Notes under the pieces: model-generated
Seen by the model: only the letters and a program-made list of their open reading frames with translations
Databases searched by the model: none
Told to the model about the DNA's origin: nothing
Source: Asanoa siamensis
GTDB lineage: Bacteria; Actinomycetota; Actinomycetes; Mycobacteriales; Micromonosporaceae
Reading direction: 5' to 3'
Length of the DNA: 44,657 bases
NCBI RefSeq assembly: GCF_016862555.1
Contig: NZ_BONE01000062.1
Location: forward strand, 1-44,657
In this document: positions 13,772-39,704 of the stretch, piece after piece
Numbering within the stretch: position 1 is the stretch's first letter
How the letters are laid out: each line of letters begins with the position of its first letter
Made by a program: the position numbers and the translations under genes

Positions 13772-13781
13772 AGCCCACCCC

Positions 13782-17322: not shown

Positions 17323-17340
17323 GGCCCTCTCCCGTAACGG

Positions 17341-17392: not shown

Positions 17393-17396
17393 GCAC

Positions 17397-18329: not shown

Positions 18330-18368
18330 GGCTTTCCTCCTCACGTACGTCGATGGCTCGCGTGTTGC

Positions 18369-18386
18369 GAGAGTGTTAGCGCTCTC
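18369..18386. promoter_or_regulatory. Candidate LacI-type operator 1
   Basis: GAGAGTGTTAGCGCTCTC has inverted GAGAG/CTCTC ends and a TTAGCGCT core of the LacI-family kind. It lies about 40 bp before the binding-protein start and 96 bp before the divergent lacI-like gene. Confidence 0.5.
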
Positions 18387-18418
18387 ATAATCGACGTCAA
18401 TAGCTCCGAAAGGCCGAT

Positions 18419-18432
18419 TGTTAGCGTTCACA
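18419..18432. promoter_or_regulatory. Candidate LacI-type operator 2
   Basis: TGTTAGCGTTCACA is a pseudo-palindrome centred on CG with five of seven positions paired per half. It shares GTTAGCG with operator 1, 50 bp away. Two sites at this distance would suit DNA looping or repression of both divergent promoters. Confidence 0.5.
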
Positions 18433-22811: not shown

Positions 22812-23219
22812 ATGCCACGGCGCAGCTACGACCACTACTGCGGGATCGCCCGCGCGCTCGACCACCTCGGCGAACGCTGGGCGTTGCTGATCGTCCGCGA
22901 GTTGCTGGCGGGGCCGCGCCGCTACAGCGACCTGCTGGCGGATCTGCCCGGCATCAGCACCGACGTGCTGGCCACCCGCCTGCGCGAGCTGGAGGCCGAC
23001 GGGTTGGTCAGCCGAGAGCGGGGCGGCGTGCGGATGTACACGCTCACCGACGCCGGCGCCGAGGTCGCACCGGTTCTCGACGCGCTCGCCACGTGGGGCC
23101 TGGGCCGGCTCGGCGAGAAGACGCCCGGAGACGCGGTGCGAGACCACTGGCCCGCGCCCCGGCCGGTAGCGGTGGCGGGCCCCGCGACTCCGGGACCCGC
23201 CACCGATGAACCGGTCTAA
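22812..23219 (+). CDS. HxlR-family winged-helix regulator
   Basis: 135 residues from ATG 22812, with no Shine-Dalgarno and a -10-like TAGGGT seven bases upstream, so probably leaderless. The HxlR core is plain: YCGIARALDHLGERWALLIVRELLAGPRRYSDLLADLPGIS, then the recognition helix DVLATRLRELEADGLV and the wing YTLTDAGAE. Members form dimers and often respond to reactive small molecules such as aldehydes, quinones or disulfide stress, some through a Cys; there is one Cys near the N-terminus (residue 10). It probably controls itself and the divergent aminotransferase. A Pro/Ala-rich tail follows the domain. The stop overlaps the next convergent gene by four bases. Confidence 0.9.
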   Translation: MPRRSYDHYCGIARALDHLGERWALLIVRELLAGPRRYSDLLADLPGISTDVLATRLRELEADGLVSRERGGVRMYTLTDAGAEVAPVLDALATWGLGRLGEKTPGDAVRDHWPAPRPVAVAGPATPGPATDEPV

Positions 23220-26200
23220 CCGAAGGCCTTCACCTCGAGCAGCCCGACCGAGCCCGCGCCGCTCTGCAGCGCGACCCGCAACCGGGTGGTGCTCACCTGG
23301 CCGAAGGTGACGGTGTTGTACGCGTTGAGCGCCACCGGGTACCCGCTCGCCGACGGAACGTTCACATAGGAGCTTCCGTTCCAGTACTGCAGGGTCCACG
23401 ACGCCGGGACGCGTACGCCTCCGTTGTCATCGAAGAAGTAGACCTGCGCCGAACGCAGCGTCTGCGCCGACGACCACGTCAGCTCCGCCCACTGGGCGCC
23501 CGTGTTGGGCCAGGTGCCCCAGCGGTCGTTGACCGTGTCGTTGGACGACGGTGGGTCGATGCCGTCGTTGATGGCCGCGACACTCTCCCAGGACGAGGTG
23601 TACGAGGCCGACGGCGTCGCCGACAGCGCAAGGTTGCCGCCGGGCTCCGGATCGGGATCCGGGTCAGGGTTGGTCCCGCCGCGGTTGTAGAGCTTCAGTT
23701 CGGTCAACCCGGTCTTCGCCGACCCGGACGCGTGCGTGAAGGAGATCCGCAGCCGGGTCGTCGATACCGGTGTGAAGCTCACCTTGTTGTAGTTGGACTG
23801 CGGCGATCCCGGCGACTTCACCTGGTTGCCCGCCGCGACGAACGCGCTGCCGTTCCAGTACTGCACGGTGTAGGACGACGGCGGCCGGTAGCGGTTGGTC
23901 GCCCGGTCGTTGCGGAAGTAGATCCGGGCCTCGTCCACGGCCCGGCTGGTCCCGAAGTTCACCTCGTACCAGTCGCTGCTGTTCGGGCTCCCGTAGGCAC
24001 CCCAGATCGGGGCGTTGGTCGGGAAGCCGTCGACGGCACCGGTGGGCGACGTGCCCGACGCCGTGTAGGACGCCGAGACTGACGCCCCCGACGCCAGGTT
24101 CGGCAGCGACGACGTCAGGTCGACGCCGGCCTTCGCGGCCACGTCCACCATCCGCGCGCTGTTCAGGTTGACGTTCTGCGGCGCCTGCAGGCCCGAGAAC
24201 GACGTGCTGAAGGTGACCACGCCGGAGCCGGACGGGAAGGTGACCGACCCGTTCGACGGGTTGTAGAGCACACGGGTGAGCCGGTCGACGGTGGCCACCC
24301 GGGTGCCGTTGAGGAAGATGGAGTAGCCCTGCGGGATGCCGCTGTAGCGCGTCACGCCGTCGGCCGGGTCGTCCCAGACGATCGACAGGTTCGCGTTGCG
24401 GTAGCGCAGGTTGTTGACCGCGAAGTGGCTCCACCCGATGTTGATCGGCGACAGCTCGATCTGGGTGTCGACCCGCGGACGCAGGCCGGCCACGTCCTCG
24501 ATCACGGTCCAGTTGCTGCTGCCGAGGATGTTGTGGTGGATCCACGAACGATATTGGATGCTGCTGCCGTTCCAGTCGGCCCAGAACTCGTTGGCGTCCG
24601 GATACCGGGTGTCGCCGTTCGGGTACTGCGCCCAGGCGTTCCAGTACAGCAGCTTCTTGTAGTCCTCGGTGGTCATCCACGAGTTCGGGTAGTTGCGCAG
24701 CGCCGACGAGTAGAGACGGAACTGCACCGTCGAGTTGATGGTCGAGAAGTTGTTGCTACCCGGCTGCCCGGCGGCCGCCGCGGCGGCCTTGTCCCGCTGG
24801 TTCGCGGTGTAGAACGGGAAGATGGGGTAGTCGGCCGGGTCGGCGTAGAGCCGCAACGCCTCGCGGTACTGCGCGGTATTGGGCATCAGGCCCACCGAGT
24901 ACGGGTAGTAGTTGTTGATTTCCTTCCACGGCACGAAGGCGTTCGTGCTGACGTGCTTGTGCTCCAGGAGCTGCCGCGACGGGTTCCACAGGGTGTTGAT
25001 GACACCGTTGCGGATCCGGTCGGCCAGCGTCTGCATCTCACTCGCCTTGGCGGAGTTGCCGAGCAGCGCGTAGGCCTGTTGCGAGGCGACCGCACCCGCC
25101 CAGACGTACGCGGTCTCGGCCCGGTCGAGGTTGCCGGAGCGCCAGTGGAACGACACCGCGTCGGCGTCGTTGCCGGTCATCGCGCCCCAGTCGTACTCGA
25201 TGACGCCGTTGTTGTTGGTGTCGTAGGAGGCGAGCTGGCCCTTGGCGTCACCCTCGGCGTAACGCGCGAAGTTCTGCAGCAGCCCCGGCTGTCCACCGTG
25301 GATCTGATAGGCCTTCCAGGCGGCCTCCGACACATACTGCGTGTACGAGTTCGACCAGTTCTCCGGGTCACCCGGGTTGTCGACGAACCGCCCGTTGGCC
25401 GAATACTGCCCGATCGACAGCCACGGCCCGTAGGAGTATTCCGGCGACCGCAGATACTTCAGGTCGTCGATGTGCATCGGCTGCGTCAGCACGATCGCGT
25501 TGTTGTAACCGGTGACACCCTCGATCGACTGCGGGAACTGGAAGTCCTGCCCCGGGATGTCGACGTCGAGGTAGTTGTAGCGCATCAGCCACCAGCGGTA
25601 GTAGATGTTCTTCTTGATGGCCGCGTCCGGCACGTCGATGTACGGCAGGTTCTGCGCCCACCACAGGTTGTAGGCCCGCACGTGGGTCGCGAACGCCGTC
25701 GCCGGCGTGAAGCCGCGGTAGCTGTTGTACTCGGTCAGCGAGGCCGGGATCTCGTTGGCCACGAAGCCGAGTTGCACCTTGGCGGTCACGGTCTGGCCGG
25801 CGCCGACGGTCACCGAGCGGGTGAGCCCGCCGCTGCTGACCGTGAAGCTGTCACCGGAGAACCGCGGGAACAGCGTGGTGAGGTTGTTCTTCACCGCCCG
25901 GGTGCCGGTCAGCTCGGAGCCGCTGGCGGTCGTCGCGTACGGCGAGGTCGCCCGCAGCGAGAGCGTCGCGGACGCCGAGCCCGTGTTCGCGATGTCCATA
26001 TTGGTCACGAGCACGTTGTTGTGGGTGATGAACTTCGTGACCGTGATCCGGATCGAGCCGCTCGCGTGCACGCTGCGCCAGTAGCTCGGCGCCTGGAACC
26101 GTTGCGAGGCCTGCTCGGTGAACGTGCCCGGCGACGGCACGATGCTGTAGGCACCCTGGCTGCTGATGTTGTCCCAGTAGGCGGCGTTGCCGCCGAACCC

Positions 26201-26527
26201 GATCACCGAGGGCGTGTGGGTGTTCATGTACGCGCCTCGGCCGCGGGTCATCAGCCAGGTGCCGGCCGGGTCGTTGCCCGAGCGGCCGAGCAACCGGTCC
26301 ATCCAGAAGTCGGTGCCGCCGCTCTCGGCGTCGTAGATGGCCTGCATGGTGTTGTTGGCGTTGTAGCCGACGGGCGGCTGGGGAATCGAGCCGGTGTTGC
26401 CGAAGGTCGGGTAGCCGATGGTCTGTGCCGCGGCCGCGGGGGTCGCGGCGATGACGCTCAACAGGCTGCCGGCGAGGACGGCGACGAGGCCGGCGGCCAG
26501 CTTCGGACGTCTGACACGTAGGGACAT
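23216..26527 (-). CDS. Secreted (alpha/alpha)6-barrel glycoside hydrolase (MGH1/GH63-like) with two discoidin-like modules
   Basis: 1103 residues from ATG 26527, which AGGAGG precedes by eight bases; a GTG nine bases upstream is too close to that site. A signal peptide (about 1-34) shows export. Residues about 40-275 look like an all-beta domain, 285-730 an (alpha/alpha)6 barrel rich in Trp/Tyr (IYYRWWLMRYNYLD, IPGQDFQFPQSIEG, WIHHNILGSSNW) of the GH63/GH37/MGH1-like kind. Residues about 805-946 and 962-1103 are discoidin-like carbohydrate-binding modules joined by a DPDPDPEP linker. I cannot assign a CAZy family: GH142 and GH121, both beta-arabinose-cleaving families on such barrels, are candidates given its neighbours. 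It is the last gene of the secreted operon. Confidence 0.8.
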   Translation of the reverse strand: MSLRVRRPKLAAGLVAVLAGSLLSVIAATPAAAAQTIGYPTFGNTGSIPQPPVGYNANNTMQAIYDAESGGTDFWMDRLLGRSGNDPAGTWLMTRGRGAYMNTHTPSVIGFGGNAAYWDNISSQGAYSIVPSPGTFTEQASQRFQAPSYWRSVHASGSIRITVTKFITHNNVLVTNMDIANTGSASATLSLRATSPYATTASGSELTGTRAVKNNLTTLFPRFSGDSFTVSSGGLTRSVTVGAGQTVTAKVQLGFVANEIPASLTEYNSYRGFTPATAFATHVRAYNLWWAQNLPYIDVPDAAIKKNIYYRWWLMRYNYLDVDIPGQDFQFPQSIEGVTGYNNAIVLTQPMHIDDLKYLRSPEYSYGPWLSIGQYSANGRFVDNPGDPENWSNSYTQYVSEAAWKAYQIHGGQPGLLQNFARYAEGDAKGQLASYDTNNNGVIEYDWGAMTGNDADAVSFHWRSGNLDRAETAYVWAGAVASQQAYALLGNSAKASEMQTLADRIRNGVINTLWNPSRQLLEHKHVSTNAFVPWKEINNYYPYSVGLMPNTAQYREALRLYADPADYPIFPFYTANQRDKAAAAAAGQPGSNNFSTINSTVQFRLYSSALRNYPNSWMTTEDYKKLLYWNAWAQYPNGDTRYPDANEFWADWNGSSIQYRSWIHHNILGSSNWTVIEDVAGLRPRVDTQIELSPINIGWSHFAVNNLRYRNANLSIVWDDPADGVTRYSGIPQGYSIFLNGTRVATVDRLTRVLYNPSNGSVTFPSGSGVVTFSTSFSGLQAPQNVNLNSARMVDVAAKAGVDLTSSLPNLASGASVSASYTASGTSPTGAVDGFPTNAPIWGAYGSPNSSDWYEVNFGTSRAVDEARIYFRNDRATNRYRPPSSYTVQYWNGSAFVAAGNQVKSPGSPQSNYNKVSFTPVSTTRLRISFTHASGSAKTGLTELKLYNRGGTNPDPDPDPEPGGNLALSATPSASYTSSWESVAAINDGIDPPSSNDTVNDRWGTWPNTGAQWAELTWSSAQTLRSAQVYFFDDNGGVRVPASWTLQYWNGSSYVNVPSASGYPVALNAYNTVTFGQVSTTRLRVALQSGAGSVGLLEVKAFG
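23219..23644 (-). repeat. Discoidin-like module, copy 1 of a repeated family
   Basis: This C-terminal module of the large hydrolase is nearly the same protein as the N-terminal module of the metalloprotease at 31250-31675 (shared: ATPSASYTS, RWGTWPN, VYFFDD, GVRVPASW, LQSGAGSVGLLEVKA). A more distant copy ends the GH43 enzyme (26552-26977). The likeness is visible in DNA as well, for example CTTCACCTCGAGCAGCCCGA in copies 1 and 2. Confidence 0.8.
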
Positions 26528-26535
26528 GGGGCTCA

Positions 26536-26547
26536 CCTCCTAGGAGG
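26536..26547. promoter_or_regulatory. Ribosome site inside a perfect palindrome
   Basis: CCTCCTAGGAGG is a 12-base perfect palindrome that contains the AGGAGG ribosome site of the large hydrolase gene. Its spacing to ATG 26527 is eight bases, which decides the start. In the message the anti-Shine-Dalgarno half lies directly upstream, but the two halves touch, so a hairpin would need some unpaired centre. Confidence 0.6.
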
Positions 26548-26548
26548 A

Positions 26549-27973
26549 TCAGGCCTGGAAGGCCTGCCATTCGAGGACGCCGGTGGAAAGTCCGGAGCGA
26601 GAGGTGATCGACAGCCGCAACCGGGTCGTGCTGACCGTGTTAAAGGTCGTCGAGTTGAACGTGTTGCCGGCCACCCCGCAGGCCGACTGACCGGGCACGG
26701 CGACGTAGGCGCTGCCGTTCCAGTACTGGACCTGGCACGACGCGGGCACGTCGATGCCCTGGTTGTCGTCGAACCAGTAGGTGGCCACCCGGTTGATCGA
26801 CCGGGCCGAGGGCCACTGGTACTCGATCCACTGCGTGCCCTGCTGCGGCCAATTCCCGTACGCCAGGTTCGACCGGTCCTGCGAGTTGGCCGGCGTGCCA
26901 CCGTTGTTGACGGCCGCGAGCGACTCCCACGACGACACGTACGACGTCGAGGCGGTGGCGCTCGGTCCCAGATTGGTGCCGGAACCGCCACCGCCGCCCG
27001 GGTTCGCCGGCGGCCCCGTGGTCGTCTGCACCACCCGCTGGATCGTGCCGTCGGCGTTGAAGAACATCCGGTCGACCGCCACCGACCGCCGGAAGTTGCC
27101 GCCGCCGGGCGCGTTGGCGTTGTGGTAGACCATGTACCACTGGCCGTTGAACTCGACGACGCCCGCGTGGTTGGTGGTCGACGAGACCTGGCCGAGCACG
27201 ATGCCGCGGTGGGTCCACGGCCCCATCGGGTTCGTCGCCGTCGCGTACCGCTGACAGGCGTAGCTCGACGACGTCACGCAGCCGTTCGTGTCGTTGGCCG
27301 CGTAGATCATGTAGTAGAGCCCGTTGCGCTTGAACATGAACGGGGCCTCCCAGTAGTTGGTGAGCCCCTGCGGCGTGACGACCGAGCCGACCGTGTCGAT
27401 CATGTTCGAGGCGAGCCGGACCGCCCGGGGAGCCCAGTAGCCGCCCCAGTACAGGTAGGCCTGGCCGTCGTCGTCGACGAACACGGTCGGGTCGATGTTG
27501 AGCCCCGACGAGTTGGGCGTGCTGTCGCTGATCAGCGGCCCGCCCTTGGCGTCGGTGAACGGGCCGAGCGGGCTGTCACCCACCGCGACACCGATGTTCA
27601 TCCAGCCCGCGCCGTTGCCGTTGACCGACGTGTACCAGTAGTAGCGCCCGTTGCGGGGCTCCACCTCGCTGGCCCACGCGTCGGCGCCGGCCCACGGGAA
27701 GGTGGCGATGTTGGCCCTGGCGCCGCGGTCGGTCCAGGTCGCGGCGTCCGTCGACGAGAGCACGTGCCACTCCCGCATGACGAAGTTCTGCTGGCTGGTC
27801 GAGGCCTCGTAGCGCCCGGTGTAGATGTACATGGTGTTGCCGACGACCAGCGGTGCCGGGTCGGCCGTGTAGATGGCGGTGACGACAGGGTTGGCGGCCT
27901 GGGCGGCAGCGCCGAACAGCACGGCGGCCGCGAGCGTCACCACCCCGCTGGCCAGCGCCAGACGTTTACGCAT
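26549..27973 (-). CDS. Secreted GH43-family glycosidase with discoidin-like module (probable alpha-L-arabinofuranosidase)
   Basis: 474 residues from ATG 27973. A signal peptide (1-27) is followed by a five-bladed beta-propeller with the GH43 triad positions: Asp38 in ADPAPL (base), Asp161 in NIDPTVFVDDDG (pKa tuning) and Glu209 in WEAPFMFKR (acid). A Gly-rich linker (about 318-330) leads to a discoidin-like carbohydrate-binding module (about 333-474). GH43 enzymes remove alpha-L-arabinofuranose or beta-xylose. With a beta-arabinofuranosidase upstream and araBA in the window, alpha-L-arabinofuranosidase is the likelier activity. The gene starts 8 bp behind the previous stop and ends 21 bp before the next start. 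Confidence 0.9.
   Translation of the reverse strand: MRKRLALASGVVTLAAAVLFGAAAQAANPVVTAIYTADPAPLVVGNTMYIYTGRYEASTSQQNFVMREWHVLSSTDAATWTDRGARANIATFPWAGADAWASEVEPRNGRYYWYTSVNGNGAGWMNIGVAVGDSPLGPFTDAKGGPLISDSTPNSSGLNIDPTVFVDDDGQAYLYWGGYWAPRAVRLASNMIDTVGSVVTPQGLTNYWEAPFMFKRNGLYYMIYAANDTNGCVTSSSYACQRYATATNPMGPWTHRGIVLGQVSSTTNHAGVVEFNGQWYMVYHNANAPGGGNFRRSVAVDRMFFNADGTIQRVVQTTTGPPANPGGGGGSGTNLGPSATASTSYVSSWESLAAVNNGGTPANSQDRSNLAYGNWPQQGTQWIEYQWPSARSINRVATYWFDDNQGIDVPASCQVQYWNGSAYVAVPGQSACGVAGNTFNSTTFNTVSTTRLRLSITSRSGLSTGVLEWQAFQA
26552..26977 (-). repeat. Discoidin-like module, copy 3 (more diverged)
   Basis: C-terminal module of the GH43 enzyme, sharing TASTSYVSSWESLAAVN, YWFDDN and QYWNGSAYV patterns with the other copies but with clear divergence, for example two Cys in its middle. 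Confidence 0.65.
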
Positions 27974-27981
27974 GGAAGACC

Positions 27982-30465
27982 TCACAGACCCGAGGAGTTG
28001 AGGGAGGCGATCTCGCTCGCCGACAACGCGCGGCTGTAGACGCGGAAGCCGTCGACGGCGCCGTTCAGGTACGGGTCGCCGCTGTACTGCGAACGCCCGA
28101 TCCAGTTCTGCGTGGTCGTGCCCAGGCCCGACGGCCGCGTCGTCAGGGCGGAGTTGCGCGCGACCTCCGCACCGTTGACGTAGAGGACGCCGAGGTTGCC
28201 GGTGTGCGTGACCGCGACGTGCGTCCACACACCGGCCGGCAGCGCGGACGGCGCGTCGATGCGCTGCTCCGCGCCGGCCCCACCCGCGGTGATGGCGTAC
28301 CGGGCGGTGCCGCTGCCGCTGCGCGGCACGAGGAACAGGTAGGTGCCCGTGCCGGTGCCGAAGTCGAACAGCCGGGCCCAGTTGGCCAGCGTGGTGACCC
28401 GCACCCAGGTGGCGATGGTGAACGAGGTGGCGCCGGCCAGGATTCCCGACGGCAGGCTGACATATTGGCTGGAGCCGCTGAGGTTGACCGCGTTGCCGCT
28501 GCGCCCGGTGGTACGCCCGGCGCCGCCAGCCAGGGTCGCCGTGCGGCCGTTTCCGGTCGCGTCCGCCGCGGTGGTGCCCGACGACTCGTCGAACGGGTAG
28601 TGCGCGACGAACGCCGGCAGCGTCGGTGTGTTCGTCACGTTCCAGTAGACGGTGTAGCGCACGCCGTGCGTCTTGTAGAACGGCAGCAGCGTCACTGAGC
28701 CTGTCGAAGCCGTCGCGGTGTACTGCAACGGCGTGCTGGTCGCCGCGAGGGTGCTCGCGTTGAGGGTGGGCAGCCCGCTCAGGTTGGTCGACCCGTACTG
28801 GCCGGCGAGCACGATCGGCCCGTGCTTGACCGCGCGGACGGCGGAGTTGTCGGGCGTCGGCTCGGTGTGCAGCGACATCGGCAGGCTGATGTCGACGGTG
28901 TCGCCGCTGGCCCAGGTGCGGTTGATCGCCAGGTAGCTGCCCGGCGTCGCCGTGCCCTGGACGACACCGTTGACCCGCACCGTCGCGCCCGAGGTCCAGG
29001 CCGGGATGCGCACCCGCAGGTCGATCGCGCCGGAGCCGGTGACGGTGAGCCGGCTGGTCGCCGCCTCCGGGTAGGTGGTGTCCTGCCGGATCGTGATGCC
29101 GCGCCCGGGCCAGGTCAAGGTGGACGCGATGAACAGGTTGACCCACAGGGTGTTGCCGTTGTGGAAGTAGATGCTCTCGCCGTACTTCGTGTTGGTCTCC
29201 ATGCCCGTGCCGTGGCAACAGGTGAAGTTGTTGTAGTCATTGCTGTAGGTCTTGATGCCACCGGCCCGCAGCGGCACGTAGTAGCAGTGGAAGCCGTGCG
29301 ACGAGCTCGGGTTCTGCGCGCCGAGCAGGTGGTTGTAGAGCGTCTTCTCGTAGAAGTCCATCAGCTGCGCGGCGCGCGCCGGGAACGTGAAGAACAACTG
29401 CCGGGTCAACTTCAGCATGTTGTACGAGTTGCAGCACTCACAGGTCGTGTCCGAGAGCTCGCTGGCGATCGCGAACGGCTGCTGGAAGTACTCGCCGTTG
29501 GAGTTCCCGCCGATCGCGTACGAGTGCTGGTTGACGACAAAGTTCCAGAAGTTGTTCGCGATGTCGCGATACCGCGTCGTGCCCGTGGCGTGGTAGCCGC
29601 GGATCGCCGCGAGCGCCTTGGGGATCTGGGTGTTGGCGTGGAACCCGTTGAGCTGGTCGACGTTGTTGGCCAGCGGGTCGAAGATCTGCGCGTGGTCGAA
29701 ATAGTGGGCCGTGGTGAGGTGCGCGGCGTTCTCGCCGTACTGGTAGAGGTTGTAGAGGGTCTCGCCGACGCCGCCGAACTCGGTGCGCAGCATGGCCTGC
29801 CGCTGGGCCAGCGTCAGCCGGCTGTTTCGGAACTGCACCCAGGCGGCCTTGCGGTTGAGGATCGTCAGCGCCTGGGCGTTGCCGGCCAGCAGGTGCATGT
29901 CGAGCAGGCCGGCCATGATCTTGTGCAGCGTGTAGTAGGGCGCCCAGACCGTCTGCCCGGTCTCCACCCGGTCGATGAAGCTCTCCGGGTACGCGGACAG
30001 GTAGCCGGTGTTGAAGCCGCGGGCGGCGGCCCGGTCCTGGCAGAGGCCGAGCTGGGTGACGATGTAGTCGCCCTTGGTCTTGTAGGAGGCGTCGCCGGTG
30101 CTGGCGTACGCCTGGGCCAGCGCGGTCAGCACGTGCCCGATGGAGTGCCCGCGCAGCTCCGTGGTCGGCGACTCCCAGCCGCCGCACGGGGTCGCCGACG
30201 AGGCGAGGCCGGCGTTGACGCGGAACATGTGCAGGAGCCGGTCGGCGTCGAGGAACGTCAGGTAGGACATCGTCCGGCCGGCGTTGGCCTGGAACGGTCC
30301 CGCCAACAGGCGGACGGCGGTGAGGGGGAAGGCGTACGCCGAGACACCGGTGTCCGGGCGGGCGGCCTGTGCGGTGCTCGGTAGCGCGACGGCGGCGGTG
30401 GTGGCCACCGCCGTTGCCGCGCCGGCCTTGAGGACGGTCCGGCGCGACAGCGGGGGTCTGTGCAT
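27982..30465 (-). CDS. Tat-exported beta-L-arabinofuranosidase (GH127/GH146 type) with LamG domain
   Basis: 827 residues from ATG 30465 behind AAAGG. The N-terminus SRRTVLKAG is a twin-arginine signal. Residues about 45-600 match the DUF1680/GH127 family: an (alpha/alpha)6 barrel plus beta domains. The catalytic cysteine/zinc set is present, Glu343-Cys344-Cys345 in ECCNSYNMLKL and Cys416-Cys417 in FTCCHGTGMETN, close in spacing to Glu338, Cys340, Cys417 and Cys418 of the Bifidobacterium enzyme HypBA1. ExCNxYNML is the form seen in GH146 members. Residues about 620-827 are a LamG/concanavalin-like domain (FTIATWVRV.., GVWTHVAVTHTGNLGVLYVNG) that may bind polysaccharide. It releases beta-linked L-arabinofuranose outside the cell. 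Confidence 0.92.
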   Translation of the reverse strand: MHRPPLSRRTVLKAGAATAVATTAAVALPSTAQAARPDTGVSAYAFPLTAVRLLAGPFQANAGRTMSYLTFLDADRLLHMFRVNAGLASSATPCGGWESPTTELRGHSIGHVLTALAQAYASTGDASYKTKGDYIVTQLGLCQDRAAARGFNTGYLSAYPESFIDRVETGQTVWAPYYTLHKIMAGLLDMHLLAGNAQALTILNRKAAWVQFRNSRLTLAQRQAMLRTEFGGVGETLYNLYQYGENAAHLTTAHYFDHAQIFDPLANNVDQLNGFHANTQIPKALAAIRGYHATGTTRYRDIANNFWNFVVNQHSYAIGGNSNGEYFQQPFAIASELSDTTCECCNSYNMLKLTRQLFFTFPARAAQLMDFYEKTLYNHLLGAQNPSSSHGFHCYYVPLRAGGIKTYSNDYNNFTCCHGTGMETNTKYGESIYFHNGNTLWVNLFIASTLTWPGRGITIRQDTTYPEAATSRLTVTGSGAIDLRVRIPAWTSGATVRVNGVVQGTATPGSYLAINRTWASGDTVDISLPMSLHTEPTPDNSAVRAVKHGPIVLAGQYGSTNLSGLPTLNASTLAATSTPLQYTATASTGSVTLLPFYKTHGVRYTVYWNVTNTPTLPAFVAHYPFDESSGTTAADATGNGRTATLAGGAGRTTGRSGNAVNLSGSSQYVSLPSGILAGATSFTIATWVRVTTLANWARLFDFGTGTGTYLFLVPRSGSGTARYAITAGGAGAEQRIDAPSALPAGVWTHVAVTHTGNLGVLYVNGAEVARNSALTTRPSGLGTTTQNWIGRSQYSGDPYLNGAVDGFRVYSRALSASEIASLNSSGL

Positions 30466-30487
30466 GCGCGGCACCTTTCACGAAGGG

Positions 30488-31771: not shown

Positions 31772-31790
31772 GGGACTCCTCTCCTTGCAT

Positions 31791-31808
31791 AGATGTAGAT
31801 CAATTTCT
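31791..31808. promoter_or_regulatory. AT-rich dyad before the secreted operon
   Basis: AGATGTAGATCAATTTCT is centred on GATC with six of nine positions paired per half, and sits 20 bp before the metalloprotease start in a locally AT-rich patch. It differs from the operators of both LacI genes, so if real it binds another regulator. Confidence 0.35.
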
Positions 31809-31812
31809 AAGG

Positions 31813-31845
31813 CCAGAGTCCGCCCATGGAGCCGCCGGAGTCTGG
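31813..31845 (-). terminator. Hairpin terminator of the importer operon
   Basis: CCAGAGTCCG (31813-31822) pairs with CGGAGTCTGG (31836-31845) in nine of ten positions around a 13-base loop, just behind the MalG-type permease stop. The RNA then runs into a TTAGAAATTG stretch. It separates the importer operon from the secreted-enzyme operon. Confidence 0.5.
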
Positions 31846-31849
31846 TGTG

Positions 31850-32647
31850 TTACCCCTTGATGGCGCCCGAGGTGAAGCCCCGGACGTAGCTGCGCTGCAT
31901 GAACGCGAAGAGGATCAGGCAGGGCACGGCCATGAAGACCACGCCGGCCTCGAGCGCGGCGTAGTCGATCGAGCCGTGGCTGGCCGTACGCATGTTGACG
32001 ACCGCGAGCGTGGTGGTGAACTTGTCGGTCGAGTTGAGCAGGATCAGCGGCGCGAAGAACTCGCTCCACGACGTGAGGAACGCGAACAGCCCGACCGTGA
32101 TCAGGCCCGGTTTCACTGCCGGTAGCATGATCCGGACGAGCGTGCCGACGCTGGCACACCCGTCCAGCTGCGCCGATTCTTCTAACTCGTGCGGCACCGC
32201 CTCGAACGAGTTGCGCATCATGAAGATCGAGAAGGGCAGCTGGAACATGATCAGCACGAGGCTCAGGCCGATCAGGGTGTCCTCGAGACCGATCCAGCCC
32301 AGCAGCACGTAGAGGGCGATCAGGATCGTCGCGTACGGGACCATCAGGATCGCGAGGGTGACCAGGAACAGCAGGTCGCGGCCCGGGAAGCGGAAGCGAC
32401 CGAAGGCGTAGCCGCCCAGCGTCGCCACGAACAGCGTGCCGCCGACGGTCAGGGCACTGACCACCAGGCTGTTGATCACGTGGTGCGGCCGCACGCCGTT
32501 GTCGGAGGTGAACAGCCGGTCGTAGTTTTCCAGGCCGAAGCCGGAGCCCGTGCGCACCGAGGCCCAGCCGCTCCAGAGCAGCGGGAACAGGAACAGGATG
32601 GCCAGCGCGGCGCCGGTGACCGACCAGCCGATGCGGGAACGGTTCAT
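31850..32647 (-). CDS. Carbohydrate ABC transporter permease, MalG type
   Basis: 265 residues from ATG 32647. Six hydrophobic helices and the EAA loop EESAQLDGCASVGTLVRIMLP, where the permease touches its ATPase, identify the MalG/CUT1 family. The gene lies 10 bp behind the MalF-type gene. No ATPase is encoded in this operon; CUT1 importers of actinomycetes commonly share one MsiK-type ATPase from elsewhere in the genome. The likely cargo is an arabinose-containing oligosaccharide, judged from the GH127 gene at the front of the operon. Confidence 0.93.
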   Translation of the reverse strand: MNRSRIGWSVTGAALAILFLFPLLWSGWASVRTGSGFGLENYDRLFTSDNGVRPHHVINSLVVSALTVGGTLFVATLGGYAFGRFRFPGRDLLFLVTLAILMVPYATILIALYVLLGWIGLEDTLIGLSLVLIMFQLPFSIFMMRNSFEAVPHELEESAQLDGCASVGTLVRIMLPAVKPGLITVGLFAFLTSWSEFFAPLILLNSTDKFTTTLAVVNMRTASHGSIDYAALEAGVVFMAVPCLILFAFMQRSYVRGFTSGAIKG

Positions 32648-32657
32648 CGCGCTGCCC

Positions 32658-33608
32658 TCAGCTCGACCGGCGGCGCAGGACGCCGAGTTGGATGACGTTG
32701 AAGACGATCAGCACCCCGAGCAGCACCACCGAGATGCCGGCGGCCGAGCCGAGGTCGAGGCGGATGAACGCCTCCCGGTAGATCACCATGACCAGCGAGG
32801 TGGTGCTGTTGTCGGGCCCGCCGCGGGTGAGGATCCAGAACTGGTCGAAGGCCAGCAGCGACCCGGTCACCATCAGCGTGAGCACGAGGGCGATCGTCGG
32901 GCGCAGCAGCGGCAGCGTGATGCGGCGGAAGGTCTGCCAGCGGCTGGCGCCGTCGACCCGGGCCGCCTCGTAGATCTCCGGCGGGATCGCCTGCAGGCCG
33001 GTCAACAGGATCAGCATGTTGAAGCCGGCGAACCGCCAGAGCACCAGCACGACGGCCGAGCCGAGCGCGGAGTTGGCGCTGCCGCTGGTCCACGAGACGT
33101 AGCCGTCGATCAGGCCGACCGCCCGCAACAGGTCGCTGACCGGCCCGATCTCGTCGCTGAGCAGGCCGAGGAAGAGCAGGGAGGCGCTGGCGAAGCCGAC
33201 CGCCATGGGCAGGAAGAAGGCGGTACGCAGGAAGCCGACGCCCGGCCGGCGATGCTGGACCAGCAGGGCCAGGCCGAGGGCGACGGCGAAGAGCAGCACG
33301 GTGATGACGACCGTGTATTTCACGGTGAACCAGGTCGCCGACCGGACGAGCTCGTTGTCGCCGATGTCGGTGAAGTTCTCCGGGGCGTTGAACGTGGGCG
33401 GTGCGAGCAGCGGCCACCGGTGCAGCGACATCCAGCCGACCAGCACCAGGGGGACGAGGAAGAACAGGGCGACCATGACCGCCGCCGGGCCGGCATAGGC
33501 GATGCCGAGCCAGGCGCGCCGCGTCTGGCGCTTCCGCGGGCGGCGGACCGTGCGCCGGCCTGCCTGTGCGGCCGGCTGTTCCCGGCGTGGGGAGATCACG
33601 GTCGTCAT
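32658..33608 (-). CDS. Carbohydrate ABC transporter permease, MalF type
   Basis: 316 residues from ATG 33608. An Arg-rich cytoplasmic start is followed by six membrane helices and the EAA loop IYEAARVDGASRWQTFRRITLPLL, then FDQFWILTRGGPDNST, both typical of CUT1 MalF-like permeases. It should form the channel with the MalG-type protein. A strong hairpin separates it from the upstream binding-protein gene. Confidence 0.93.
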   Translation of the reverse strand: MTTVISPRREQPAAQAGRRTVRRPRKRQTRRAWLGIAYAGPAAVMVALFFLVPLVLVGWMSLHRWPLLAPPTFNAPENFTDIGDNELVRSATWFTVKYTVVITVLLFAVALGLALLVQHRRPGVGFLRTAFFLPMAVGFASASLLFLGLLSDEIGPVSDLLRAVGLIDGYVSWTSGSANSALGSAVVLVLWRFAGFNMLILLTGLQAIPPEIYEAARVDGASRWQTFRRITLPLLRPTIALVLTLMVTGSLLAFDQFWILTRGGPDNSTTSLVMVIYREAFIRLDLGSAAGISVVLLGVLIVFNVIQLGVLRRRSS

Positions 33609-33631
33609 CGTCGTCCTTTTGCTTGGTGGGT

Positions 33632-33660
33632 GGGGCCCCGGAACGGCCTACCGGGGCCCC
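33632..33660 (-). terminator. Strong intercistronic hairpin after the sugar-binding gene
   Basis: GGGGCCCCGG (33632-33641) pairs perfectly with CCGGGGCCCC (33651-33660) around AACGGCCTA. It sits five bases behind the binding-protein stop (reading the minus strand) and 23 bases before the MalF-type start. It should slow decay of, or partly terminate after, the binding-protein message. Confidence 0.65.
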
Positions 33661-33665
33661 GGGTC

Positions 33666-34955
33666 TCAGCTCTGTTGCAAGGACTTCGTGATGTCGGTGT
33701 TGCCCTGGCTCAGCGCCGCCGCCGCGTCACCGAAGAGCGCGCCGCGCACGGTCTGCAGCCACGGGCTCTGCGGGTCGTTGAAGGAGGCGTTGAAGTTGCG
33801 GGCGTACGGGGTCTGGCCCTTGGCCATCAGCGAGTTGATCAGCACGACCCGCGGGTCGGTCGACGAGTACTTGTTGGAGGCCAGGTCCGTACGCGTCGGC
33901 ACGCCCTTGTTCTTCGCGACGACCTCGATCTGCGCCTCGTCGGACATGGTCCAGGCGAGGAAGTCCCACGCCTGCGCGGCCTTGGTGCTGGTGGCGCCGA
34001 TGCCGATCGCGTCGCCGCCGACGAACGTCGACTCGCCCCCGTCGGGACCCGGAATCGGGGCCACGCCCATCTTCACGCCCTTCTCCTCGATCAGGCCGAG
34101 CCAGACCGACGGGCCGGGCGCGATGCCGACCTTGCCGCCCTGCAGGGCACCGAGCCAGGTCGGGCCGGCCTCGTCCTTCGACGCCGGCGCGGCCACGCCC
34201 TCGTCGTAGAGCGAGCGGTAGAGGGCGAAGACGTCCGCCATCTCCGTGGAGTCGATCTTCGCGTTGTTGCCCTCGGCGTCCAGCACCGCGCCGCCCGCGG
34301 CCCAGACCGACGGCCAGAACGTGAACTCGACGCAGCCGCCGCAGTTGCCGCCGAAGTAGGTGCCGTTGACGTCACCGCCCAGCTTGTCGATCTTGCGGGC
34401 GTGCTCCGCGAACTCCTTGAGCGTGGTCGGCGGCTTCTCGGGGTCGAGGCCGGCCTTCGCGTAGAGGTCCTTGTTGTAGAGCATCACCGACATGTCGATG
34501 GTGTGCGGGACGGCGTAGGTCTTGCCCTCCCAGGTGCCGGCCTTCACGTGCGCCGGGGCGACCTTGTCCTTGACGTCGAGCGCGCCGAACCGGTCGCTCA
34601 GGTCGACCCAGAGGCCCTGCGACGCGTACTGCGCGGCGAACACGACGTCGGAGGCGAACAGGTCCGGCAGCGCCTTCGCGCCGGCCGCCGACGCCAACTT
34701 GGCCGGGTACTCCTCGTTGGGGTAGGCGGTCACCTCCACCTTGTTCTTGTGCGTGGCGTTGTATTTCTCCGCGTACGCCTTGGAGACCGCTTCTGTCGCC
34801 GCGCGGGTCCACAGGGTCAACGTGGCGCCGTCGTCGGCCGAGGCTTGTGCGCCTCCGCCGGCGGGTTCCTCGTCGTTGCCGCAGGCCGCGACAGCGGTGA
34901 CCAGTAGCGCCGCCGCCAGGCCGGCGACGACGCGTCGTGCTCGGTATCTAGCCAT
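33666..34955 (-). CDS. Sugar-binding lipoprotein of a CUT1 importer
   Basis: 429 residues from ATG 34955 (AAGGAG upstream), overlapping the GH127 stop by eight bases. The signal peptide ends in VAAC, a lipobox. The mature part is a cluster B solute-binding protein (LTLWTRAATEAVSKAYAEKYN, YPNEEYPAKLASAAGAKALPDLFASD, GKTYAVPHTIDMSVMLYNKDLYAKAGLD). The order GH127, binding protein, permease, permease resembles the beta-arabino-oligosaccharide loci of bifidobacteria. Beta-L-arabinobiose is therefore a good candidate ligand, by inference. Confidence 0.92.
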   Translation of the reverse strand: MARYRARRVVAGLAAALLVTAVAACGNDEEPAGGGAQASADDGATLTLWTRAATEAVSKAYAEKYNATHKNKVEVTAYPNEEYPAKLASAAGAKALPDLFASDVVFAAQYASQGLWVDLSDRFGALDVKDKVAPAHVKAGTWEGKTYAVPHTIDMSVMLYNKDLYAKAGLDPEKPPTTLKEFAEHARKIDKLGGDVNGTYFGGNCGGCVEFTFWPSVWAAGGAVLDAEGNNAKIDSTEMADVFALYRSLYDEGVAAPASKDEAGPTWLGALQGGKVGIAPGPSVWLGLIEEKGVKMGVAPIPGPDGGESTFVGGDAIGIGATSTKAAQAWDFLAWTMSDEAQIEVVAKNKGVPTRTDLASNKYSSTDPRVVLINSLMAKGQTPYARNFNASFNDPQSPWLQTVRGALFGDAAAALSQGNTDITKSLQQS

Positions 34956-36870
34956 CCGTACTCCTTCGCCGAGGGGACTGGACGGTGGGCAGCCAGACCC
35001 GCATGGTGGCGGGGCCGCGGCGCGCCCACCGGTGATAGGGCAACAGCCGGATCAGTCCGAGCGGCGGGTCGTCGCCCGCCGGGTGGTCGTAGGGCCAGGC
35101 GTTGTCGGCCGCCGTGGCGAGGCCGCCCCAGACGTCGACGCCGTCGCCGGCATCGGCCGGGGCCCGGCCCTGGTCGACCCGGAGCAGGTCGAGGTCGCCG
35201 ATCGGCTCGCGCTCCGGTGACTCGGCACAGTAGACGACGGGACCGCGCTCGACCGCGACACAGCCGCGGACGGCGTCGATGCGCGGGTCGGGCGTGGTGA
35301 ACCGGGGCGCCACGGGCAGGTGCAGGTGGACCTCGTCGCCCACGGCGAACGCGCGCCGCACGGTGATCGTGCTCTCCGCCTGCTCGGTGACGCCGTCGAC
35401 CGTCACCGTCGCGCCGTGCGCCCACTCGGGCACGCGCAGGGTCAGCGGCCACTCGCCGCCGTCCGTCGCGGTGATCCGGATGGTGACGTCGCCGTCGGCG
35501 GGATAGGCGGTGGCGACCTCCAGTGCCACGCGGCGGCCGTCGGCGAGGCGCGTGTCGACCGTCGCGTCCGCGTACTGCATGATCCGCAGGCCTTCGTCGT
35601 CGCCCGCGGCGAGGTAGGTGCCGAGGCTGGCCAGCAGGCGGGACACGTTGGGCAGGCAGCAGGACACCTCGAACCAGGGCGCCCGCGGCCCGCCGCCGAA
35701 GCCGAGTTGCTCCTCGTCGTCCGGCAGGGCGCGGGTGGGCGTGCGCTGGTGCAACGTGTGCGCGTAGAAGAAGGCGCGGCCGTCGTCCTCGATGGCGGTG
35801 GCGACCACGTTGTAGAGGATGCGCTCGATGACGTCGGCGTAGCGGACCTCGCCGGTGGCCAGCAACAGCCGCCAGGACAGCATGACGGCGGCGACCGCGG
35901 CGCAGCTCTCGCTGTAGGCGCGGTCGGAGGGCAGCACGAAGTCGTCGCTGAACGCCTCGTCCATGTGCCGCGAGCCCATGCCGCCGGTCAGGTAGGTGCG
36001 CCGGGCGAGCGTACGGTCGAACTGCTCCCGCACGGCCCCGAGCAACGCGTCGTCGCCGGTCTCGACGGCGACGTCGACCACACCGCAGGCCAGGTAGAGC
36101 GCGCGGACGGCGTGTCCACGCAGGACGGTCGCGTCGCGGACCGGGATGTCGTCGCTGAAGTAGGACCAGCCGAACTGGTGCGCCGGCAGGGTCTGGTGCC
36201 CGCGCCGGCCGACGAAGAGCTTGGCCTGGTCGAGGTATTTCCGCTCTCCCGTGACCCGGTAGAGCTCGACCAGCGCCGGCTCGATCTCCGGATGGCCGCA
36301 GACGCCGGTGCTGCCGGTCTCACCGAATGTCTCGCAGACGTGGTCGGCGACCCCACGGGCGATGTCGAGCAGCGGGCCCGGGCCGTGCACCCGGGTGTGC
36401 GCCACCGCGGCCTGCAGCAGATGGCCGGCGCAGTAGAGCTCGTGGCCCCACTGCAGGTCGCTCCAGCGCGGCGCCTGGCCGGGCCGGCCGTAGGCGGTGT
36501 TGAGGTAACCGTCGCTCTCCTGGGCGCCGCCGACCAACGCGACGAGCTCGTCGATCTCCCGTTTCCGGGCGGGGTCCGGCGTGCGGCCGGTCTCCCAGGA
36601 CATCGCCTCGATCAGCTTGTAGACCTCGGAGTCGGCGAACTCGCGCCCGCGGTGCTCGGCCGGGCCGGTCGCGCCGCCGATGGTGAAGTTGGCGGTCCAC
36701 CCGACCTTGTCCATCCAGGCCCGGGCGTGGTCCAGGCTGCCCTCGCTGATGACACGCTGCCGGTCGGCCCAGAAGCCCGCGGTGATCCGCGCCTCGGCCA
36801 GGCCGAGCGGGCGGAGCGCACCCCGGGACGGGTCCACCGGCCGGCCGCCGGTGGGGTCGGAAGCTGCCAC
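34948..36870 (-). CDS. Cytoplasmic beta-L-arabinofuranosidase, GH127 family
   Basis: 640 residues from GTG 36870, which GGAGG precedes; an upstream extension in the same frame would cross the operators. There is no signal peptide, so it works inside the cell. The GH127 active-site set is visible: Glu321-Ser-Cys323 in YSESCAAVA and Cys404-Cys405 in VSCCLPNVSR, the counterparts of Glu338, Cys340, Cys417 and Cys418 in HypBA1, where the Cys is the nucleophile and a zinc is bound. Length matches HypBA1 (about 650). It should split imported beta-1,2-arabinobiose or similar glycosides to L-arabinose, which AraA and AraB then use. First gene of the operon with the importer; translation of the next gene is coupled by overlap. 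Confidence 0.94.
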   Translation of the reverse strand: MAASDPTGGRPVDPSRGALRPLGLAEARITAGFWADRQRVISEGSLDHARAWMDKVGWTANFTIGGATGPAEHRGREFADSEVYKLIEAMSWETGRTPDPARKREIDELVALVGGAQESDGYLNTAYGRPGQAPRWSDLQWGHELYCAGHLLQAAVAHTRVHGPGPLLDIARGVADHVCETFGETGSTGVCGHPEIEPALVELYRVTGERKYLDQAKLFVGRRGHQTLPAHQFGWSYFSDDIPVRDATVLRGHAVRALYLACGVVDVAVETGDDALLGAVREQFDRTLARRTYLTGGMGSRHMDEAFSDDFVLPSDRAYSESCAAVAAVMLSWRLLLATGEVRYADVIERILYNVVATAIEDDGRAFFYAHTLHQRTPTRALPDDEEQLGFGGGPRAPWFEVSCCLPNVSRLLASLGTYLAAGDDEGLRIMQYADATVDTRLADGRRVALEVATAYPADGDVTIRITATDGGEWPLTLRVPEWAHGATVTVDGVTEQAESTITVRRAFAVGDEVHLHLPVAPRFTTPDPRIDAVRGCVAVERGPVVYCAESPEREPIGDLDLLRVDQGRAPADAGDGVDVWGGLATAADNAWPYDHPAGDDPPLGLIRLLPYHRWARRGPATMRVWLPTVQSPRRRSTDG

Positions 36871-36910
36871 CGTGTTACCTCCAGGTTTCGTGATGGCGCT
36901 CACTCTGAAC

Positions 36911-36928
36911 GCCGAAAACCTTTTCGGC
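36911..36928. promoter_or_regulatory. LacI-type operator with perfect arms
   Basis: GCCGAAAA-CC-TTTTCGGC has eight-base perfect arms around two bases. It lies 41 bp before the GH127 start and 86 bp before the divergent LacI gene, so binding would affect both promoters. Confidence 0.7.
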
Positions 36929-36998
36929 AAGATGCCAAATCGGCTGGCGCGCACTCGCTCTTCAGGCTGCTACGTTGCGTTCAGCACCTGAAAACGTC

Positions 36999-37013
36999 GG
37001 CGAAAGGTTTTCC
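36999..37013. promoter_or_regulatory. Second, partial operator over the LacI ribosome site
   Basis: GGCGAAAGGTTTTCC repeats the core of the operator at 36911 (GCCGAAAAGGTTTTCGGC on the other strand) with one base missing and a worn right arm. It covers the GAAAGG ribosome site and ends at the ATG, which suggests autorepression. Confidence 0.5.
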
Positions 37014-38057
37014 ATGGGGCGGCACCGTTCGCAGGCTGTGACGTTGTCCGACGTCGCGCGCCGGGCAGGCGTCTCGGTCGCCACGGCATCGAAGGCGCTC
37101 AACGACCGCGCCCAGGTGGCGGCGGCGACCCGGCAACGCGTCCTGGAGGCCGCGAGCGAGTTGTCGTTCCACCCCAACGCGCTGGCCCGCGGCCTGATCG
37201 TGGGCCGCACCCGGACCATCGGCCTGCTCACCGACGAACTCGGCGGCCGGTTCTCGATCCCGATCCTGCTCGGCGCGGAGAACGCGCTGGGCAACGAGCA
37301 GATGTCGGTGCTGCTGTGCGACGCCCGCGGCGACGCGATCCGCCGGCAGCACTACATCCGCACGCTGCTCGCCCGCCGGGTCGACGGCTTCATCGTGCTC
37401 GGCGACAGCAACGACATCCGCCCGTCCCTCACCCGCGACATCCCGGTGCCGGTCGTCTACGTGTACGGGGAGTCGGCGGACCCGGGCGACTTCTCGCTGC
37501 TGGCCGACGACGAGGGCGGGGCCCGGCTGGCGGTGGAGCACCTCGTCGCGCTGGGTCGCCGGCGGATCGCCCACGTGACGGGTCCGCACGCCTACCGGGC
37601 GGCCCGCGACCGGGTGACGGGTCTGCGCGCGGTGCTGGCCGAGCACGACCTCGCGCTGGCCGGTGGCGAGCCGCTGTTCGGCGAATGGTCGCAACGCTGG
37701 GGCCGGCACGCGGCGCGGATGCTGCTCTCGGCGGAGCCGGAGATCGACGCCATCTTCTGCGGCAACGACCAGATCGCCACGGGGGTCTCCCAGACGCTGC
37801 TCGACCTGGGCCGCCGCATCCCTGACGACGTGGCGATCGTGGGCTACGACAACTGGGAGGACTTCGCCACGGACTGCCGCCCACCGCTGACCACCGTGGA
37901 CCTCAACCTCGAACACCTGGGCGCGACGGCGGTCGAACACCTCTTCGGCGCGCTGGACGGCACCCCGTCGACGGGCGTGCTCCGCCAGCCGTGCCGCCTG
38001 GTGATCCGCGAGTCCACGGTCCCCACCACGGTCCCGCAGCCCCGCCCGTCCGCCTAA
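37014..38057 (+). CDS. LacI-family regulator of the beta-arabinoside operon
   Basis: 347 residues from ATG 37014 with GAAAGG upstream. Residues 8-58 hold the helix-turn-helix TLSDVARRAGVSVATASKALND and hinge FHPNALARGLIVGRT. The sensor domain follows (IGLLTDELGGRFSIPILLGAENAL, IFCGNDQIATGVSQTLLDLGRRIPDD, VGYDNWEDFATDCRPPLTT). It is divergent from the cytoplasmic GH127 gene and the shared region carries one perfect and one partial copy of a LacI-type operator. Inducer unknown; an arabinose disaccharide or arabinose would fit. Confidence 0.93.
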   Translation: MGRHRSQAVTLSDVARRAGVSVATASKALNDRAQVAAATRQRVLEAASELSFHPNALARGLIVGRTRTIGLLTDELGGRFSIPILLGAENALGNEQMSVLLCDARGDAIRRQHYIRTLLARRVDGFIVLGDSNDIRPSLTRDIPVPVVYVYGESADPGDFSLLADDEGGARLAVEHLVALGRRRIAHVTGPHAYRAARDRVTGLRAVLAEHDLALAGGEPLFGEWSQRWGRHAARMLLSAEPEIDAIFCGNDQIATGVSQTLLDLGRRIPDDVAIVGYDNWEDFATDCRPPLTTVDLNLEHLGATAVEHLFGALDGTPSTGVLRQPCRLVIRESTVPTTVPQPRPSA

Positions 38058-39636: not shown

Positions 39637-39704
39637 GGCACCTCCAGTTTTTGCATTGAGAGTGCGCATATCGTCGCAGTCCGATGTGTGGTTGGTCTAC
39701 CTTC

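Follow-up and report, generated by a model that had tools for sequence, protein, structure and literature searches.

Extensins belong to the more recalcitrant proteins of plant walls, and little is known of their recycling by soil bacteria. A locus of Asanoa siamensis, lying in the window (the whole stretch of 44,657 nucleotides analysed here), raises the question of whether one bacterial gene set can dismantle such proteins, both sugar and backbone. Judged from sequence, it is probably a complete, locally regulated operon for the beta-L-arabinofuranosyl oligosaccharides of hydroxyproline-rich wall glycoproteins, namely extensins and solanaceous lectins. That its protease also cuts the glycoprotein backbone is suggested by the gene context, at about even chances. 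The features are listed below.

23216-26536, minus strand: secreted GH121 beta-L-arabinobiosidase (HypBA2-like), 1106 aa, with C-terminal F5/8 type C and DUF7402 modules
26549-27973, minus strand: secreted GH43 alpha-L-arabinofuranosidase-like enzyme, 474 aa, with a C-terminal F5/8 type C-like module
27982-30474, minus strand: secreted GH146-type beta-L-arabinofuranosidase, with a LamG-type module and a twin-arginine-like leader
30488-31771, minus strand: secreted metzincin-like metalloprotease, with a signal-like leader, a module and a catalytic domain
31850-32647, minus strand: importer permease, GlcU/MalG-like (Pfam BPD_transp_1; NCBIfam matches below cut-off)
32658-33608, minus strand: importer permease, UgpA/MalF-like (Pfam BPD_transp_1; NCBIfam matches below cut-off)
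33666-34955, minus strand: sugar-binding lipoprotein of a CUT1-type importer (Pfam SBP_bac_8, E 8e-37; lipobox-like AACGND)
34948-36870, minus strand: cytoplasmic GH127 beta-L-arabinofuranosidase (HypBA1-like), 640 aa (Pfam and PDB matches)
36909-36930, strandless: operator-like palindrome between the LacI and GH127 genes, with the core CGAAAACCTTTTCG at 36913-36926
37014-38057, plus strand: LacI-family regulator, 347 aa, divergent from the operon (Pfam LacI and Peripla_BP_3)

The proteins named in an earlier sequence-only reading were all found as open reading frames in their places, and the Pfam domains agree. The eight codirected genes on the minus strand (23216-36870) encode GH127, the three importer proteins, the metalloprotease, the GH146-type enzyme, GH43 and GH121, and the gaps between them are −8 to 78 bases. 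This order recurs in 9 of the 80 protease loci fetched, in the families Micromonosporaceae and Pseudonocardiaceae; together with the window they make ten full-operon loci. The earlier division into two adjacent operons is rejected, as the gaps are short throughout, the 78-base gap before the protease holds no operator-like match and only one operator-like palindrome is present. The eight genes thus form one conserved operon.

The palindrome is likewise conserved. Its core has one exact match within the window. With 0–2 mismatches, a core lies between LacI and GH127 in all ten full-operon loci, the window included. When up to two mismatches are allowed, TTGCCGAAAANNTTTTCGG has its sole place in the 8.78 Mb genome at this palindrome. 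The start of the LacI gene is most likely ATG 37014 by frame and position. A local LacI regulator with a predicted operator site at the operon is a mark of the Hyp/Bau-type systems, and by analogy with characterised relatives the LacI protein would repress the whole operon from this single operator.

The large (alpha/alpha)6-barrel hydrolase, as it was described earlier, is present and its family can now be named. Pfam assigns to it an MGH1-like glycosidase domain, an F5/8 type C module and a DUF7402 module. It matches the PDB entry 6m5a with E 6.3e-193 and 647 bits, and its E339, D457 and E650 are the three essential acidic residues of HypBA2, which place it in GH121 on sequence grounds. A GH63- or GH142-like identity was rejected, since GH121 is the best by far (647 bits versus 71 for GH142).

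Against the HypBA2 equivalog model NF041578, the enzyme scores 846.9 bits, under the curated cut-off of 3200 bits, so it is filed as GH121 and not as a HypBA2 equivalog. None of the 396 genomes of the phylum draw passes that cut-off. The model matched 32 of them, and most of its catalytic part is covered only in the own genome, G222 and G387, with G222 having a second, shorter match of 102 bits. Nearly all the other matches in the phylum fall beyond model position 1030, in the module and anchor regions.

The cytoplasmic GH127 most likely starts at GTG 36870 behind GGAGG. Its catalytic domain is found by Pfam with E 2.9e-81 (in the ORF 34948-36954), and the middle and C-terminal domains are matched too. 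The PDB matches include 4qjy (E 1.6e-103) and HypBA1 itself, 3wkw (E 1.4e-80), and the protein carries E-x-C and CC motifs. By eye, no signal peptide is seen in the 640-aa reading, in line with the cytoplasmic GH127 of the Hyp/Bau-type systems. No importer ATPase gene lies in the operon.

In the GH146-type enzyme, Pfam finds the GH127 catalytic domain (E 2.1e-109) and Laminin_G_3, and the structures separate the two families: the GH146 entries 5opj and 8k7x score 329 and 206 bits, the best GH127 entry 65 bits. It carries ECC and CC motifs, and both GH146 and GH127 keep the Zn-binding Glu and Cys residues of the cysteine glycosidases. The GH43 domain (Pfam E 3.3e-44, in the ORF 26549-29218) was already recognised in the sequence-only reading; the gene is 26549-27973 and not the whole ORF. 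Its nearest PDB entry is 3qed (E 2.4e-73), accompanied by other xylosidase/arabinofuranosidase entries.

The enzymatic steps for hydroxyproline-linked arabinosides are established (PMC6085000, PMC10850190, PMC5928203). In Xanthomonas euvesicatoria, XeHypAA (GH43), XeHypBA2 (GH121) and XeHypBA1 convert Ara4-Hyp to arabinose (PMC6085000), and XeHypBA1 and Bll4HypBA1, both of GH146, are active on Araf-beta1-Hyp (PMC10850190). Characterised GH121 enzymes in the cited literature act on hydroxyproline-linked beta-arabinose, and the operon does hold the GH121 that an argument from Bifidobacterium had led one to expect, which favours the extensin-type reading. As GH43, GH121, GH146 and GH127 co-occur in the operon, there is a candidate for each step.

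By analogy with these relatives, GH43 would take off the alpha-linked terminal arabinose outside the cell, GH121 would free beta-Ara2 from Ara3-Hyp and GH146 would take off the last Araf-beta-Hyp. The CUT1-type importer may then bring the disaccharide into the cell, where GH127 would split it into L-arabinose, a product that AraBA could metabolise. The earlier reading had araBA with a second importer 10 kb away; both are present, at these distances.

10620-13334: ORF containing araA, whose domains start at about 12104
12125-13771: araB, 9.4 kb from the operon
13782-18431: second importer, 4.8 kb from the operon

The stretch between this importer and the operon carries a second LacI gene, a methyltransferase, an EAL gene and an aminotransferase. 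No member of the proline racemase/hydroxyproline epimerase family was found in the own genome, and hydroxyproline use via that route is thus not indicated.

The same enzymes could be turned to other arabinosides. A target in pectic arabinan or arabinogalactan proteins, through their beta-arabinofuranosyl caps, or in RG-II is rather unlikely; in that case GH146 and GH43 would do the work and the GH121 likeness would reflect family and not substrate. In its favour, the GH146 enzyme BT0349 is active on oligosaccharides derived from arabinan, and Bll3HypBA1 takes beta1,3-Araf off arabinogalactan proteins and arabinan (PMC10850190); the closest entries to the GH43 are arabinofuranosidase/xylosidase ones, and the large enzyme weakly matches GH142 of the RG-II system. 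That match is dwarfed by the GH121 one, however, and the three GH121 residues are kept. Moreover, the Pfam scan of 29 window ORFs saw no further arabinan, pectin or RG-II enzyme, and such a target gives the protease no reason, arabinogalactan proteins excepted.

Mycobacterial arabinan also carries beta-linked arabinofuranose caps, so the D-arabinan of actinobacterial cell walls, with its beta-D-Araf caps, might be attacked in predation or recycling. This is very improbable, as the GH121, GH127 and GH146 enzymes in the cited literature act on L-arabinofuranosides, araBA for L-arabinose is nearby and CBM2 in relatives of the protease points to plant material. The hydroxyproline-linked arabinosides are hence kept as the preferred target.

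Among the nearest described systems is that of Bifidobacterium longum, whose hypBA1-hypBA2-hypAA with BauABC and BauR1 serves the use of beta-arabino-oligosaccharides (PMC5928203, PMC10850190). By gene family the two are alike in the cytoplasmic GH127, the secreted GH121 and GH43, the predicted ABC importer and the local LacI regulator. They differ in that the window operon includes a protease as well as a secreted GH146; in B. longum, the locus tag of Bll4HypBA1 (BLLJ_0089) sets it apart from BLLJ_0211-0213. The window GH121 has 1106 aa and no FIVAR or membrane anchor was seen in it, while the B. longum one has 1943 aa. No Bifidobacterium cluster for direct comparison was found in the 43 genomes of one genus, whose identity is presumed only.

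X. euvesicatoria has the same three secreted-enzyme families in XeHypBA1, XeHypBA2 and XeHypAA (PMC6085000, PMC10850190), but its BA2-AA operon is regulated by HrpX (PMC6085000), while a LacI gene adjoins the window operon. The Xanthomonas account expects the deglycosylated proteins to be degradable by proteases, and the parts of it cited here name no co-encoded protease (PMC6085000). The stripping of the sugars has been described in other bacteria; what is new is the attached protease.

The protease consists of an F5/8 type C-like module at about residues 31-180 and a catalytic domain at about 180-427, where HEIGHTYGLDD (HExxHxxGxxD) begins at residue 374 with a Met downstream. The module scores 25.2 bits with F5_F8_type_C_2, slightly below the cut-off of 27.8, and matches positions 1130-1288 of the HypBA2 model with E 3.7e-13. 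It is shared within the operon, being 72% identical to the GH121 module and 49% to the GH43 module. It may hold the protease on the same polymer as GH121 and GH43, where the backbone would be cut.

The catalytic domain reaches no curated family cut-off in Pfam or NCBIfam. The window protein scores best with M6dom (18.0 bits versus a cut-off of 110.8) and Reprolysin_5 (12.9 versus 27), so that M6, M7, M10, M12 and M66 were all rejected as its family. Against the PDB, its catalytic profile has no sequence match and the N-terminal module is the only part of the whole protein matched. H195, E196, H199, G202, D205 and M219 are nevertheless invariant in 93 protease rows, which all have the metzincin motif HExxHxxGxxH/D and a putative Met-turn in the downstream Met.

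Fold and profile comparisons point weakly to the metzincins (M12B, M10, M6, M7, M66 and others). The best E-values of metzincin-family profiles across the 93 members are only 2.9e-5 and 2.4e-5. An AlphaFold2 model from the 93 sequences has a pLDDT of 86, and its best Foldseek matches are ADAMTS-1 (probability 0.92, E 0.024) and MMPs; none is at or below 0.001, and among the 50 matches shown almost every one is a metzincin. An earlier model from 10 sequences was poor (pLDDT 61) and its structure search gave no convincing match.

A secreted metallopeptidase acting on extensin has a precedent in Svx of Pectobacterium atrosepticum, which recognises the arabinan chains of extensin and cleaves this protein (PMC13164431). 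By description, the two are set apart: Svx belongs to the gluzincins and has an acyltransferase-like domain, whereas the window protease has the metzincin-type HExxHxxGxxD and a binding module.

How tightly the protease is tied to the sugar enzymes depends on the range of genomes. In a draw of 200 genomes from the order, all 9 that match the protease strongly also carry GH121, the own genome and G070 with only a GH121 fragment included, versus 6 of the 191 others. The Fisher p is about 4e-12, or 5e-10 if G070 is counted as lacking GH121, both ignoring kinship. Outside the order, only 2 of the 8 genomes that match the protease strongly carry GH121, and in a relative (L162, G193) an operon with this gene order lacks the protease. 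Hence, the sugar route can do without the protease, which counts as an accessory.

It is quite possible, although the odds are against it, that the glycosidases target extensin-type glycans while the protease has a different job, in that it cuts wall or microbial proteins in general or serves to mature the enzymes secreted with it, or is a passenger. This disputes the protease step alone, so its likelihood overlaps with that of the arabinoside operon. Besides the distribution outside the order and the protease-free operon, it is favoured by the cellulose-binding CBM2 in 8 of the 10 protease relatives given, 4 of these from loci without GH121, and by two CBM2-bearing relatives (L037, L040) that adjoin a CBM2-bearing sugar dehydrogenase. 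Against it speak the module of the same kind in GH121 and GH43, the position kept in the nine loci and the co-occurrence with GH121 inside the order even where the two are unlinked (G105, G169).

Returning to backbone cleavage, we tentatively propose, at somewhat less than even odds, that the protease is the founding member of an undescribed, metzincin-like family of glycopeptidases that F5/8-type or CBM2 modules target to plant walls, and that in these actinomycetes it was built into one operon that completely dismantles hydroxyproline-rich glycoproteins, sugar and backbone. If the proposed role of the operon is right, deglycosylation and proteolysis can form one regulated trait, the route known from gut bacteria and Xanthomonas extends to actinomycetes of soils and plants, and a protease family that lacks a curated model has a clear candidate substrate.

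The wider set of relatives shows how the linkage varies. Of the 77 genomes from which protease loci were fetched, a sample weighted towards close relatives, 63 have a GH121 match above 150 bits, and 51 of the 80 loci have no GH121 inside the fetched flanks, some of which end at contig ends. On a tree of 93 proteases, linkage to GH121 switches 13 times by the best count, at least 8 of them on strong branches, yet its clustering exceeds that of all 500 shuffles.

Single-sequence protease searches matched 10 of 200 and 13 of 394 genomes, weak matches and the own genome included; a profile search of 396 phylum genomes matched the own genome only, which is not taken as evidence of absence. The module architectures were labelled by simple motif rules, by which some loci are unlabelled and some fragments are called naked. 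Both Herpetosiphon loci are among the unlabelled, and Pfam shows CBM2 in them. Among the 80 loci compared, that of Asanoa hainanensis is the nearest to the window.

The genes in question form one run and a divergent regulator gene.

36870 down to 23216, minus strand: GH127, solute-binding lipoprotein, two permeases, metalloprotease (30488–31771), GH146-type enzyme, GH43 and 1106-residue hydrolase (23216–26536), in this order
37014–38057, divergent from the operon: LacI gene

The intergenic gaps in the run are −8, 57, 10, 78, 13, 8 and 12 bases and the layout recurs with its LacI gene, so the two adjacent operons of the sequence-only reading become a single eight-gene one. The proteins it had listed are all present. 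Judged by eye, hydrophobic leaders start the four that it took as secreted, namely the protease, the GH146-type enzyme (twin-arginine-like), the GH43 and the large hydrolase. By the same judgement, the binding protein of the importer has a lipobox-like leader and the GH127, taken as cytoplasmic, has none.

The large hydrolase is, by sequence, a GH121 member. Among the solved structures, it matches 6m5a, the Bifidobacterium HypBA2 β-L-arabinobiosidase, with an E value of 6.3e-193 and the GH142 enzyme 5mqr with only 4.2e-19. Its E339, D457 and E650 align with HypBA2 Glu383, Asp515 and Glu713, which the HypBA2 study describes as kept in the GH121 sequences aligned there; activity was lost in the mutants of both Glu residues and very little was left in those of Asp515 (PMC7263609). 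The HypBA2 equivalog model NF041578 gives 846.9 bits, under its 3200-bit cut-off, with the window protein covering in a single stretch the first ~1033 of the 1709 model positions. A second GH121 type, about 40–45% identical and in frames of 1600–1900 residues, occurs at three loci (L160, L161 and L166, of genomes G038, G042 and G133), and is accompanied by GH127, GH43 and an importer in G038 and G133.

For the secreted GH127/GH146-type enzyme, the best structure matches are GH146 (329 and 206 bits, against 65 bits for the best GH127); for the cytoplasmic enzyme, the best match is GH127 (351 bits, against 25 bits for GH146). Both retain the Glu-x-Cys and the Cys-Cys pair of the Zn-bound cysteine glycosidases. 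The closest structure to the GH43 is 3qed, which we take to be an arabinan-specific α-L-arabinofuranosidase.

The predicted substrate class follows from GH121. In Xanthomonas, GH43 is described to cut the α1,3 bond of Ara4-Hyp before GH121 acts and XeHypBA1 comes last (PMC6085000). XeHypBA1 is a GH146 member reported to hydrolyse mainly Araf-β1-Hyp, and the bifidobacterial GH146 Bll4HypBA1 likewise takes off the final residue (PMC10850190). In Bifidobacterium, BauABC is the presumed importer of the disaccharide that is set free, and cytoplasmic HypBA1 splits it, a system reported to be under the LacI-type regulator BauR1 (PMC5928203). The window operon has a candidate for each of these steps, all within one gene run, and the sugar route has good support from the protein families, key residues, operon structure and regulation.

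The araBA genes with a second importer, also claimed earlier, are indeed found at 10620–18431 as araA, araB and a BPD_transp_2-type importer (permease, two-stretch ABC_tran ATPase and binding protein), adjoined by a second LacI gene at 18482–19507. No araD was noticed among the window ORFs scanned with Pfam.

Of the 80 protease loci fetched (the top 80 of 298, hence biased to close relatives), 9 repeat the full layout including LacI; they are from Asanoa, Umezawaea, Lentzea (3), Saccharothrix (2), Crossiella and Actinosynnema. Genome G083 has this layout too. A palindrome close to TTGCCGAAAAGGTTTTCGG lies between LacI and GH127 in the window and all nine loci, its core having 0–2 mismatches. 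The window's genome has it at a single place with up to 2 mismatches, the second match being the same palindrome on the other strand. Thus, the LacI regulator looks dedicated to this operon, probably acting from this putative operator. One more 2-mismatch core match within the LacI gene carries no meaning, as 6 of 100 window shuffles had two or more. In genomes G222 and G387, the fetched stretches contain GH121 together with LacI, importer, GH127 and a GH146-like piece, and no protease. Locus L162 (genome G193) has GH127, importer, GH146, GH43 and GH121 in the operon's order without the protease, and is a natural comparison for its contribution.

The protease is predicted to be metzincin-like, short of a proven metzincin. 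All 93 proteases in the alignment, that of the window among them, keep HExxHxxGxxD and a Met downstream of it, the row of L107 being omitted; this Nonomuraea jiangxiensis locus has a stop codon inside the aligned stretch. The window protease is above no Pfam or NCBIfam cut-off, and the weak family matches of the 93 are chiefly to metzincin families (best 2.9e-5 and 2.4e-5). A second structure model (pLDDT 86, pTM 0.87) has ADAMTS-1, matrixins and karilysin as top matches, the best E being only 0.024.

Its N-terminal F5/8 type C-like module shares 72% identity with the last GH121 module, 49% with the GH43 module and 38% with the first GH121 module. Genome-wide, it matches only these three and itself, and it also matches HypBA2 model positions 1130–1288. 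Cellulose-binding CBM2 was found in 8 of 10 full-length protease relatives given to Pfam, four from loci without GH121 (two Herpetosiphon) and four from loci with it; the other two, from Saccharothrix operons, have no Pfam match, yet their modules are 80–81% identical to the window's. At two loci, a gene for a CBM2-bearing glucose/sorbosone dehydrogenase (L037:7811–9331 and L040:7915–9435) adjoins that of a CBM2-bearing protease relative. These contexts fit a role at the plant wall.

Protease and GH121 were searched in the same 200 genomes drawn from the window's order. The protease matches in 10, and the weak match of G144 (21.5 bits) was dropped. GH121 is present in 9/9 genomes with a strong protease match (the window's own included; a 55-bit fragment in G070) and in 6 of the 191 others, with a Fisher p of ~4e-12, or 5e-10 if G070 is counted without GH121, uncorrected for kinship. 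Both lie on one contig within 5 kb in six of the nine. Among the fetched loci, biased as they are, 63 of 77 distinct genomes (without L095) have a GH121 match above 150 bits, two of them only of a 44%-identical kind, and GH121 is inside the fetched flanks at 29/80. In other orders of the class draw, GH121 accompanies the protease in only two of eight genomes with a strong match, and on the protease tree linkage to GH121 switches 13 times, with at least 8 of the switches on strong branches. Therefore, the protease is a wider family that has repeatedly been coupled to the GH121 system or dropped from it. A proteolytic step is plausible though unproved, supported by the shared module and the co-occurrence inside the order.

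The nearest precedent for an extensin-directed protease here is Svx, described as a gluzincin that cleaves extensin and requires a second domain recognising the extensin arabinan chains (PMC13164431). By this analogy, a protease of this kind could depend on the sugars themselves and not on their removal. Neither a GH121 operon with a protease nor this operon in actinomycetes appeared in titles or abstract starts of the matches listed from the open literature, outside which most subscription papers lie. A Lentzea genome study, by term search, lists GH146 and is without mention of GH121, GH127 or extensin (PMC9120177).

Beyond the LacI gene, 38335–39669 encodes an alpha/beta hydrolase whose C-terminal domains are Lipase_C and AF_1763-like, and close to the end of the window an Eco57I-type DNA methylase-like gene (41780–43462) lies in a stretch of lower GC.
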